From Chthoniobacteraceae bacterium (GTDB lineage Bacteria; Verrucomicrobiota; Verrucomicrobiia; Chthoniobacterales; Chthoniobacteraceae), in NCBI GenBank assembly GCA_947476045.1, contig CANJNZ010000026.1, forward strand, positions 1 through 52,213: 52,213 nucleotides of DNA, in the 5' to 3' direction. This document shows positions 26,105 to 48,032 of this stretch, in pieces (position 1 is the first letter of the stretch; every line of letters starts with the position of its first letter). Made by a program: the position numbers and the translations under genes. Under the pieces are notes generated by a model that made no database searches, was not told the DNA's origin, and saw nothing but the letters and a program-made list of their open reading frames with translations.

Positions 26105-26163
26105 GAAAATGACGAATGACGTGTGGCGAATGAGGAAGAAAGAACGAATGACAGTTGACGAAC
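26105..26163. repeat. ATGACGR heptamer repeat in an operon gap
   Basis: Directly 5' of the start at 26101 the plus strand reads GAAAATGACGAATGACG, with further degenerate GAATGAC units to 26163. The same family occurs at 28883, 46550, 47101 and, as one unit, at 48030. Confidence 0.55.
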
Positions 26164-28882: not shown

Positions 28883-28918
28883 GAAAATGACGGATGTCGG
28901 ATGATGAATGACGAGTGA
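28883..28918. repeat. ATGACGR heptamer repeat in an operon gap
   Basis: The plus strand reads GAAAATGACGG followed by ATGTCGG, ATGATGA and ATGACGA units. It lies 5 bases 5' of the minus-strand start at 28878, in the second of the block's two large gaps. Confidence 0.55.
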
Positions 28919-45296: not shown

Positions 45297-46544
45297 TCAG
45301 GCCGCGGAGGATTCGACACGCCACATGCCGCGCACGAGCATGGGACCGTCGCCGGCAGGAGTGTGGGGCATTTTTCCTCCGCCGAAAAAATTACCGGCCA
45401 TGACTTGCAGTTCGGCGGCATTTTTCAGCTCGTCGAGGGGCACGCGGAGGCGGAAGTGCGGGTAGAGGCCGATATCGAAACGATAGGTGCCTTCGATGAG
45501 CGGGAGCGTGTCGAGGCGGCAGACGAGCGCGCCACGCAGAGGCGGGTTTTCCAGTGGTTGCGCGGTGAAGTTGTTCGATTGCGTGATGAGCGCTGCGCCG
45601 ACGGGTGTGGTGATGGTCAAATTTGCCGTGAGCTTCGGCAATTGCGCGGCGCATTCGTAGTGAATCCACACTTCGACGGGATCGGCGCTGGTGATGGCTT
45701 TTGTGGGACTTCCCTGAGCGTCTCTAAACTCGACGGCTGTGATGCGCGCCTCGCCGCTTCCCGTGCGGTCCGTGCGTTTGCGGAGATCGCCATCGGCGTT
45801 TGCAAAATGGCTCGCGTAGTGCCGGAGCGCTTCGGTCTGCGTGCCGTCGAAATCCATGCGTCCGTGATGCAGCACGATGCCGCGTGTGCAGAGATTTTCG
45901 ACCGCAGCGGCGTTGTGGCTGACGAAGAGCACGGTGCGTCCGCTGCGTGAAACCTCGCCCATTTTTCCCACGCACCGCTGCTGGAAGGCTGCGTCACCAA
46001 CGGCCAGCACTTCATCCACGATCAAAATCTCCGGCTCCAGATGCGCGGCCACGGCGAAGGCGAGGCGCACGCGCATCCCGCTGCTGTAGCGTTTCACCGG
46101 CGTGTCTATGAAATCTGCGATTTCGGAAAAGGCCACGATATCGTCGAACTTTTTGGCGACTTCGCGCGTGGTCATGCCGAGGATCGCGCCGTTGAGGAAG
46201 ACGTTGTCGCGCCCGGTGAGTTCATTGTGAAAGCCGGTGCCCACTTCGAGCAGCGATGCGACGCGACCGCGCAGTTTCACCGAGCCCCGCGTGGGGGATG
46301 TGATGGAACTGAGGATTTTCAGCAAAGTGGATTTGCCTGCGCCATTGTGCCCGATGACCGCGACGACCTGTCCTTGTTCGATGTCGAAATTGATGTCGCG
46401 CAATGCCCAGAAATTTCCCGGCGCATCATCCGGCTCCGCGATGCGCAGCAGCTTGTTTTTCCAGTCGTGCAAAAACGAGCGCCGCCCCAGCTCGCCGAGG
46501 CGGTAGAGCTTGCTGAGGGATTCGACTTTAATGGCGAGACTCAT
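45297..46544 (-). CDS. ABC polysaccharide exporter ATPase with a C-terminal Wzt-like domain
   Basis: A 415-residue ATPase of the O-antigen/teichoic-acid export family. Walker A is GHNGAGKST, the signature is YSSGMRVRLAF, and Walker B is ILIVDEVLAVGD. The extension of about 150 residues (260-410) resembles the carbohydrate-binding Wzt C-domain that recognises chain-terminal modifications, which fits the methyl- and sulfo-transferases here. The start abuts a heptamer-repeat tract at 46550. It pairs with the permease at 47157 but is separated from it by an inserted gene. Confidence 0.93.
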   Translation of the reverse strand: MSLAIKVESLSKLYRLGELGRRSFLHDWKNKLLRIAEPDDAPGNFWALRDINFDIEQGQVVAVIGHNGAGKSTLLKILSSITSPTRGSVKLRGRVASLLEVGTGFHNELTGRDNVFLNGAILGMTTREVAKKFDDIVAFSEIADFIDTPVKRYSSGMRVRLAFAVAAHLEPEILIVDEVLAVGDAAFQQRCVGKMGEVSRSGRTVLFVSHNAAAVENLCTRGIVLHHGRMDFDGTQTEALRHYASHFANADGDLRKRTDRTGSGEARITAVEFRDAQGSPTKAITSADPVEVWIHYECAAQLPKLTANLTITTPVGAALITQSNNFTAQPLENPPLRGALVCRLDTLPLIEGTYRFDIGLYPHFRLRVPLDELKNAAELQVMAGNFFGGGKMPHTPAGDGPMLVRGMWRVESSAA

Positions 46545-46549
46545 TGGGA

Positions 46550-46645
46550 AATGACGGATGACGGGTGAATGACGGATGACGGATGAATGACGGATGACGA
46601 ATGACGGATTCCGAATGAATGACGGATGACGGATGACGAATGAAA
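46550..46645. repeat. ATGACGR heptamer tract between the inserted gene and wzt
   Basis: About twelve ATGACGG/ATGACGA units occur head to tail with occasional 4-base ATGA/GTGA breaks and one ATTCCGA. It ends at the four-helix-bundle stop and begins 5 bases from the Wzt start. The unit is a heptamer, so its frame shifts along the tract and it has no obvious coding role. Confidence 0.75.
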
Positions 46646-46650
46646 TAGCT

Positions 46651-47127
46651 TCATTTGCGTTCGAGGGTGGTGCGGCGGATTCGGGAGAAGATGAGGTGGA
46701 GGGCGCGGGCTTCCTCCCACAGGATGCGGGCTTCGGGTTTCAAGTCGGGAACTGCACGGGCGAGCATTCGGATGAAGAATTTTGCTTCACGCGCCTCTTT
46801 GCGGCAGGTGTTGATTTTCAGGACGAACTCTTTTCGCGACACAGCATCGTCAGCCTCACAATAGTTGCCGCCGATGCTCGTGCCGCAGCCGGTGAGTTGA
46901 TCGATGAGCCGATACGTGTGAGGGCCTCGCGGGATTTTTTTCAGGAAATCAATCACCGCCTCCCCAAACTTCGCAGTCCGTTCCTCCAAATCGTATCCAT
47001 CACGCGAACCAGCAGCATCCTCACGAATAACGCAGCTTTCCTCCGCGTCGAGTTCGTCATCAGGCCAGTCCTTTTCCCAAGGCTCGATAGTATCGTAAAA
47101 ATTCGTCATGCGATATTCGTCATTCAT
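46651..47127 (-). CDS. Four-helix-bundle (23S rRNA intervening-sequence type) protein
   Basis: A 158-residue protein. The core (about residues 45-140) matches the family: YDLEERTAKFGEAVIDFLKK, GCGTSIGGNYCEADDAVSRK and INTCRKEAREAKFFIRML. Proteins of this fold are encoded by 23S rRNA intervening sequences and as free-standing genes in PVC and other bacteria; they bind nucleic acid and are related to diversity-generating-retroelement Avd proteins. The N-terminal MNDEYRMTN is encoded by heptamer repeat, so a start at 47109 (MTNFYDTIEPW) is an alternative. The gene lies between wzm and wzt with heptamer tracts on both sides, as if inserted. Function is not known. Confidence 0.85.
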   Translation of the reverse strand: MNDEYRMTNFYDTIEPWEKDWPDDELDAEESCVIREDAAGSRDGYDLEERTAKFGEAVIDFLKKIPRGPHTYRLIDQLTGCGTSIGGNYCEADDAVSRKEFVLKINTCRKEAREAKFFIRMLARAVPDLKPEARILWEEARALHLIFSRIRRTTLERK

Positions 47128-47158
47128 TCAGAATTCGTCATGCGTCATTCGTCATTTC
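47101..47158. repeat. Inverted ATGACGR heptamer tract between wzm and the inserted gene
   Basis: The minus strand reads GAAATGACGAATGACGC then ATGACGA and GAATGAATGACGA units. It overlaps the N-terminus of the four-helix-bundle gene and touches the wzm stop at 47157. The unit runs in the opposite orientation to the tract at 46550, so the two tracts form an inverted frame around the gene. Confidence 0.7.
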
Positions 47159-48032
47159 AAACCGTATCCATCACCGTCTGCTCTGTTTTGCAGAACATCA
47201 TCAGCCCGACGAAGAATACCGCCACGCAGGTCGCGGCGCTGACGAAGAGGTCGCTTTGCGTGACAACGCCTTCGCCGAGGAAGGCGTAGCGGAATGATTC
47301 GATGATGGGCACCATAGGGTTCAGTTTCAGCACTGCGACATAGGTGGGGTCTTTGATTTTTGAGAGCGGAAAGACGACGCTGCTTGCATACATCCAGAGT
47401 TGCACACCGAAGCCCACTGCCATTTGCAGATCGCGGTAGCGCGTGGTGAGCGCGGCGACGATGAAGCCAACGCCGAGGCCGAGCAGCGCGGTTTGAAAAA
47501 GGAGCGCGGGGAGCAGCGCAATGCGCCAGTTCGGGTCGAGGTGGATGGTGTGTTGCGGGTCGGGGAACCAGTGCATTTTGGCCCAGTAATATGCGAGGCC
47601 GATCAGGAACACGGCAAACTGCACGCCGAAGCCGGCGAGGTTCGTGAGCATCTGCGAGAGCGGTGCGGCGAGGCGGGGAAAATAGACTTTTCCAAAAAGC
47701 GCCGCATTGCGCGTGAAGGTGAGGGCGGTCTTGTTCACGCACTCGCCGAGGAAGCCGAAGACGACGAGCCCGCTCATGTAGAAAAGGAAGTGCGGGATGT
47801 GGTCGGTGCCCATGCCGGCGACACGGCCAAAGAGGAAGCTGAAGACGACCGTTGTGAGCAGCGGCTGGATGATGAACCAAGCGGGACCGAGGACCGTCTG
47901 CTTGTATTGCGCGGTGAGATTGCGCTTCGCCATCAGCCACACGAGGTCGCGGTATTGCCAGAGCTCGCGCAACGGGATGTCCAGCAGACTACGGCGGGGG
48001 AGGATGGTTTTACTCCAGGGTATTTCGGGCAT
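47157..48032 (-). CDS. ABC polysaccharide exporter permease (Wzm-like)
   Basis: A 291-residue ABC-2-type membrane protein with about six helices (for example GPAWFIIQPLLTTVVFSFLF and FGFLGECVNKTALTFTR). The N-terminal RDLVWLMAKRNLTAQYKQT is characteristic of the O-antigen/teichoic-acid export family. ATG 48032 (MPEIPWSKTILPRRSLLD) is chosen; more upstream frame exists but overlaps the methyltransferase gene. It should form the export channel with the ATPase at 45297. One heptamer-like unit (CATTTCGGAAATGACGG) covers the start codon. Confidence 0.93.
   Translation of the reverse strand: MPEIPWSKTILPRRSLLDIPLRELWQYRDLVWLMAKRNLTAQYKQTVLGPAWFIIQPLLTTVVFSFLFGRVAGMGTDHIPHFLFYMSGLVVFGFLGECVNKTALTFTRNAALFGKVYFPRLAAPLSQMLTNLAGFGVQFAVFLIGLAYYWAKMHWFPDPQHTIHLDPNWRIALLPALLFQTALLGLGVGFIVAALTTRYRDLQMAVGFGVQLWMYASSVVFPLSKIKDPTYVAVLKLNPMVPIIESFRYAFLGEGVVTQSDLFVSAATCVAVFFVGLMMFCKTEQTVMDTV

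Follow-up and report, generated by a model that had tools for sequence, protein, structure and literature searches.

An earlier note, made from sequence alone, remarked that the genes wzm and wzt, which are normally adjacent, are separated in a Chthoniobacteraceae bacterium (GenBank assembly GCA_947476045.1) by a gene for a four-helix-bundle protein framed by heptamer tracts, and proposed that the tracts and the gene form a mobile or actively copied unit. How did this gene come to lie there, and does it travel with the tracts around it? We analyzed a stretch of 52,213 nucleotides (contig CANJNZ010000026.1, positions 1 to 52,213), here called the window, together with related and more distant genomes. 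With a probability of roughly 0.7, we favor the explanation that the insert is a mobile IVP element of small size, with one S23/IVP gene between inverted tandem-heptamer arms; it would have entered the wzm-wzt junction after the split from the nearest relatives, and would move, or be copied, as a whole.

The wzm-wzt junction with and without the insert

Read on the minus strand, the locus runs from wzm through the first arm, the IVP ORF and the second, inverted arm to wzt; wzm and wzt serve in the export of sugars. The features of the window are as follows:

46550..47158, minus strand: complete IVP element, a four-helix-bundle gene between two mutually inverted arms, lying between wzm and wzt
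47101..47158, minus strand: 5' arm on the wzm side, reading AAATGACGAATGACGCATGACGAATTCTGAATGAATGACGAATATCGCATGACGAAT on the minus strand; it holds the IVP start codon and lies directly 3' of the wzm stop
46651..47127, minus strand: gene for the IVP (four helix bundle protein), 158 aa; family match over residues 49-153, N-terminus coded by the tract
46550..46645, plus strand: 3' arm on the wzt side, with ATGACGR-type units on the plus strand, opposite in orientation to the 5' arm; the wzt start codon is 5 nt away
47157..48032, minus strand: wzm-like ABC export permease, 291 aa; C-terminal end KTEQTVMDTV, the same as in the empty-site relatives
45297..46544, minus strand: wzt, ABC ATPase with a Wzt_C domain (domain matches ABC_tran and Wzt_C)
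26109..26122, plus strand: gene-less ATGACGR tract immediately 5' of a glycosyltransferase start
28887..28914, plus strand: gene-less ATGACGR tract immediately 5' of a methyltransferase start

The protein encoded between the arms matches PF05635 (23S_rRNA_IVP; 35.0 bits compared to a cut-off of 33.8, E = 1.8e-8) and TIGR02436, four helix bundle protein (50 bits compared to a cut-off of 24, E = 2.9e-13); a solved structure exists for a relative in the family (2rld, E = 4e-32 with an alignment profile), and 2gsc matches weakly. Coordinates and family matches agree with the earlier description of an IVP-type gene framed by ATGACGR tracts in opposite orientations, and TRF calls tandem arrays with a period of 7 at 46550-46644 and 47101-47156. 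The proposal that the N-terminus, MNDEYRMTN, is made of the tract also holds: the start ATG and the first codons of the ORF lie inside the 47101-47158 arm, and the heptamers encode these residues. On the other side of this arm, the TGA stop of the Wzm/KpsM-like permease adjoins it directly. Allowing up to two mismatches, ATGACGRATGACGR has 17 matches in the window compared to 1.6 expected, a count reached in 0 of 100 shuffles; across the whole genome there are 45 exact matches to ATGACGR 14-mers and none to the reversed control.

The two arms align over 73 nt, and their flank-inversion score of 37.0 is the joint fourth highest among the 73 IVP genes of the order-level set described below. As to the hairpin formation that the earlier note had suggested checking, the predicted RNA fold pairs both arms into a long stem (z = -2.7). 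The IVP is the only coding-strand ORF between the arms, and no transposase, recombinase or reverse transcriptase is found inside the element.

Inspection of the same junction in related genomes revealed empty sites. G001, the nearest relative, whose Wzm is 90% identical, has GATACGGTG-TAA-20 nt-ATG there, and G006 (Wzm 84% identical) has GATACGGTG-TAG-21 nt-ATG; neither has an insert. The distance from the wzm stop to the wzt start is about 610 nt in the window genome compared to 20-21 nt in these two. That wzm and wzt are normally adjacent is borne out as well: wzt lies directly 3' of wzm in most relatives whose junction was read, including more distant ones, and the nearest and most other relatives carry no IVP gene at this place. 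The condition that the earlier note had named as refuting its claim, an IVP gene here in every relative, thus does not hold. Wzm ends at the identical residue with and without the insert. The junction in G001 is ...ATGGATACGGTGTAA-20 nt-ATGTCACTGGCAATCAAAGTCGAA, and the filled junction, with its left edge aligned to the empty site, is ...ATGGATACGGTTTGA-AATGACG...CGTCATTTCCCA-ATGAGTCTCGCCATTAAAGTCGAA. No target-site duplication is legible between the filled and empty wzm-wzt junctions; the original 20-nt gap has been replaced. The simplest history suggested by these alignments is that about 590 nt were gained in the window species as the short gap was replaced.

Inverted heptamer arms across the IVP family

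To score inverted arms, we took 300 nt on each side of the IVP domain and aligned the 5' segment with the reverse complement of the 3' segment, using a threshold of at least 16 for the order-level and plasmid sets and at least 15 for the cross-phylum set and the other-gene control. Among 73 IVP genes in 38 same-order relatives, 71% have inverted flanks; for 3008 control positions within these loci the figure is 0.27%. The cross-phylum set spans more than 12 phyla (Verrucomicrobiota, Planctomycetota, Bacteroidota, Acidobacteriota, Thermodesulfobacteriota, Chloroflexota, Patescibacteria and others); here 65% of 75 IVP genes pass compared to 0.6% of 5953 control positions, in a set that was collected with a single protein query and is therefore biased towards that part of the family to which the window gene belongs. 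Other genes rarely pass (12 of 909, 1.3%), and two of those 12 are unmasked IVP genes. On named plasmids of Gloeocapsa, Chlorohelix, Planktothrix, Nostoc, Anabaena, Pseudanabaena, Bernardetia and Treponema, 10 of 12 IVP genes reach the threshold. The inverted-arm architecture is the rule for the IVP family in many phyla; about one-third of IVP loci score below the threshold, and the long IVP variants G000:C6 and G000:C8, from the window's own genome, are without arms.

Long variants of 190-260 aa also occur at G009:C33, G002:C35 and G022:C12. Some of the long variants have a C-terminal topoisomerase-like zinc ribbon (CPQCG...CTKYPDCKGT), and others have internal in-frame 9-nt repeats (NGLNGLNGL).

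The arms are phased at seven nucleotides. Over 94 loci, their autocorrelation stands out at lags 7 and 14 (0.62 and 0.60, respectively), compared to 0.30 for shuffled arms and 0.22-0.32 at the remaining lags; the best period is 7 nt in 79 of the 94, with a minority of 6-, 8-, 9- or 11-nt units. The unit itself varies by locus (ATGACGR, GGATTGC, GTTGAGA, GTGACTG, GAGTTCG, TAACGGG, GATTTAC, GAATTAC and TATTGAC are examples), while the units on the two sides of any given IVP gene match. Pooled and read towards the gene, the arms give the profile A-T-T-G/T-N-N-G. An origin of the arms by chance, or as generic terminators or palindromes, was rejected on the basis of the specificity for period 7 together with the gene and position controls. 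Arms can reach into the coding sequence at its other end, too: at G000:C60, G001:C130, G003:C366 and G012:C529 the IVP C-terminus is coded by the arm, as in NPKSEIRNPQ from GGATTGC-type heptamers, in three frames.

The upstream neighbor is co-directional at 72 of 85 IVP loci. In 60 of these 72 the arm edge falls between -17 and +15 nt of the upstream stop, a closeness that is partly built in because the heptamers themselves carry stop codons. On plasmids, IVP elements split the operon partners DUF1156|Swt1, drmD|pglX and cas2|cas1. The first two pairs are separated on cyanobacterial and Chloroflexota plasmids; on plasmids of Nostoc (L264), Pseudanabaena (L265) and Anabaena (L266), the elements lie between CRISPR adaptation genes (cas2|cas1, csx2|cas1).

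Relocation of the unit, gene-less tracts and the search for a mover

Direct comparison of copies argues that tract, gene and tract behave and relocate as a single unit. Between G000:C60 and G001:C130, 85% identity extends over 515 nt, which is exactly the arm-gene-arm segment, and the flanks have no homology; G003:C366 shares this unit at 71% identity. Within one genome, G036, two copies of an element occupy different sites (78% over 446 nt). The mobile half of the earlier claim is upheld by the empty sites and by near-identical units at unrelated sites; "actively copied" says more than can be taken from mobility that rests on comparison. The protein codons of C60 and C130 differ by 37 synonymous and 12 non-synonymous changes, which points to purifying selection on the IVP protein in this pair. 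In the IVP protein tree there are 29 phylum changes, compared to a minimum of 13 and a shuffled mean of 50.6, and several of them are forced by well-supported branches; this mixing is suggestive of transfer between phyla, though not proof of it.

Other IVP copies have been inherited in place with conserved flanks, an observation that fits a quite different account, in which the IVP gene is a resident regulator whose product binds a hairpin of the mRNA that encodes it, for autoregulation or processing of the operon mRNA, and selection on the stem instead of mobility keeps the arms. The frequent co-direction of IVP genes with their upstream neighbors would suit such a role, and so would the way that arms co-vary at one orthologous site: they are GTGACTG in G001 (C126), GTGACTT in G007 (C4) and GTGATTG/GTGAAAG-like in G020 (C134), and the match within a genome is about equal to or better than the match between genomes. 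A resident regulator is hard to reconcile with close relatives that have empty sites and with one element at unrelated sites; moreover, its partner genes are not constant (wzm/wzt, cas1/cas2, drmD/pglX and many others). We regard this account as improbable.

Heptamer tracts also occur on their own. In 0.84 Mb sampled from the window's genome (G000), we counted 17 strict tandem tracts with period 7, none with periods 4, 5, 8, 10 or 13, and up to 5 with periods 6, 9, 11 or 12; the period-14 count is merely period 7 repeated. Many of the tracts form close inverted pairs, that is, short-loop hairpins, and 21 of 36 tract clusters are intergenic, where intergenic DNA makes up 12% of the sample. The ATGACGR, GGATTGC and GAGTGKC tandem families each match the arms of one IVP gene in this genome; the IVP genes matched by the main families are at C26, C60 and C19. 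A 168-nt unbroken GGATTGC/GGAGGGC array (L245:990-1157, on G000:C6) is much longer than the other tracts in this genome. Among the 38 genomes, the GTGACTT tandem (GTGACTTGTGACTT) is found only in G007, around the IVP gene and at three other sites; G001, which has GTGACTG arms at the orthologous gene, has dispersed GTGACTG elsewhere. GTGACTGGTGACTG is confined to G000, G001, G003, G004, G005 and G006 in this set.

Are the tracts, then, an independent REP-like repeat family, with an IVP gene that landed in or was captured by the loop of a hairpin and a protein that has nothing to do with them? Most ATGACGR tracts carry no gene, and several members of the genus are rich in ATGACGR but lack an IVP gene framed by it. 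G035 has 39 ATGACGR tandem matches and no IVP gene detected by PF05635 or by an alignment profile, a profile search that had no positive control; either the gene was lost or missed there, or tracts can spread without it. A strict rule of one IVP gene per heptamer family had to be discarded, as ATGACGR, GTTGAGA and GATTGCG tandems are all present in some genomes that lack an IVP gene with the corresponding unit. The linkage of tracts to four-helix-bundle genes that the earlier note proposed to check is therefore one-sided: IVP genes are framed by tracts far above control, but most ATGACGR tracts are gene-less, and they occur in G035, where no IVP gene was detected. Against independent repeats stand the frequency of inverted arms at IVP genes in many phyla (65-71%, compared to about 1% of other genes), a unit that is specific to the locus and yet identical on both sides, and a period of 7 that is specific to the arms. 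Nor did the relatives offer a tract to land in, as the wzm-wzt gap of G001 and G006 holds none. The histories of arms alone and gene alone are not fully separable, because the gene could have come into a hairpin that was already present. On balance, we consider an independent repeat family unlikely.

A third account gives the work of moving hairpins to a RAYT (Y1 transposase) of the host or to a retroelement, as in REPINs or DGR-like systems. The genome does encode two Y1_Tnp (RAYT-like) proteins, one inside the window at about 1534-1869, in the stretch 1441-2013 on the minus strand, and one at L257 (G000:C85). Both genes are flanked by their own G+C-rich palindromes of the CATCCCGGAGGGATG / CACCCCGGAGGGGTGCC type, not by heptamers, in the classic REP-RAYT arrangement; RAYTs are present, but with different repeats, and we rejected them as movers of the heptamer hairpins. 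Avd, a component of diversity-generating retroelements, is a small four-helix bundle, and one IVP protein (L184) weakly matches the bAvd model (24 bits compared to a cut-off of 40). However, a search with RVT_1 (PF00078) found no reverse transcriptase in the window's own assembly, which is 96.8% complete; the reverse transcriptase partner that the earlier note had suggested is absent from this assembly, and no DGR-type template or variable repeats are seen around the IVP gene. A RAYT or retroelement as the mover is very unlikely.

A putative mechanism and the place of the element among known systems

The comparisons described above establish, at the level of sequence, the insertion, the mobility of the unit, the inverted heptamer architecture, its spread across phyla and purifying selection in one pair. 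For a mobile IVP element, we propose the following course of events. The element would settle mostly in narrow gaps between co-directional genes, at operon junctions. Its arms would be terminal inverted repeats, in which the 7-nt phasing is kept and the unit sequence drifts, with both arms of a copy staying matched; the same unit would also spread in the genome as gene-less hairpins. Once transcribed, the arms may form a long stem that RNase III could cut, by analogy with the 23S rRNA IVS, and such a cut would free the flanking messages and make the insertion tolerable. The protein, as an oligomer of four-helix bundles, may bind the heptamer hairpin as RNA or single-stranded DNA, and might help copy the hairpin to new sites with host enzymes. 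Against this course of events, matched arms could arise by template-switch correction of quasi-palindromes, without a role for the protein.

The closest known system is the 23S rRNA IVS with an S23/IVP ORF, known from Leptospira and Coxiella, processed by RNase III and already suspected to be mobile (PMC4990558). It shares with the window element the PF05635 family, a patchy distribution and a layout in which inverted repeats, 28 bp long in Coxiella, enclose a loop with one short ORF; the IVS measures about 430 nt in total (PMC4990558). In contrast, the window element lies between the protein-coding genes wzm and wzt, its arms are locus-specific tandem heptamers, and gene-less copies are dispersed; because it is not located in rRNA, it is not itself a 23S rRNA IVS. 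The best reading is an IVS-like mobile hairpin element that lives at operon junctions. Many genes are annotated as "four helix bundle protein", a label for which no function is known according to PMC4990558. The earlier view that the unit is not a named mobile element stands in so far as we found no paper in the open-licence literature linking PF05635 genes to heptamer arms; it is weakened by the suspected mobility of the IVS in 23S rRNA.

Tandem heptamers have their own literature. In cyanobacteria they are known as STRR. In the trnL group I intron of Nostoc, the P6b stems are built of Class I (TDNGATT) and Class II (NNTGAGT) heptamers (PMC4476775); these stems resemble IVP arms in their inverted tandem structure, in the repeated swapping of units and in a GATTNNN make-up found in many IVP arms. 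No protein is linked to them or to the cyanobacterial heptamers in the papers we found, whereas here IVP genes on Nostoc, Anabaena and Planktothrix plasmids sit inside such arms. The TAACTGA repeats of Beggiatoaceae, Cyanobacteria and Bacteroidetes are likewise 7-base intergenic tandems, patchy across distant phyla, for which transmission by mobile elements has been considered, but they are direct and almost never inverted, have one fixed unit and have no stated link to IVP (PMC4679880).

REP/REPIN-RAYT systems (PMC3116915, PMC2817692) also combine, in one genome, dispersed gene-less palindromes with a gene flanked by related palindromes; they differ in having a Y1 transposase and fixed palindromes of 20-40 nt, where the IVP element has tandem-heptamer arms and a four-helix bundle for which no catalytic site is known. 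Diversity-generating retroelements are set apart by the reverse transcriptase and the template and variable repeats, and insertion sequences and DNA transposons by the transposase gene between their ends. There is a fair chance that the IVP element merits a class of its own.

Taken across genomes, the sequences point to a widespread and little-recognized kind of small mobile element. More tentatively, and less probably than not, PF05635 genes and inverted heptamer hairpins may form one phylum-crossing mobile class without a recognizable transposase, in which the protein acts on 7-nt-phased hairpins and not on a fixed sequence; gene-less hairpins, among them the P6b stems of Nostoc trnL and the tandem heptamers of cyanobacteria, would be its non-autonomous products. 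Tandem heptamers have been noted separately in several groups; their association with IVP genes in many phyla provides a testable role for the two. On this view, the protein should bind heptamer hairpins, RNase III should trim inserts from messages and new insertions should appear at operon junctions. If movement truly proceeds without a conventional transposase, the mechanism would be new.

One further locus in the window's own genome has a similar layout. At L221:9132-9533 (G000:C1), a gene for a GxxExxY / PDDEXK_3 nuclease lies within inverted arms of tandem GAACCGCAGATGAACGCGGATGAACGCAGAT, with a phasing of about 10 nt; this nuclease is possibly a second gene family of like architecture.
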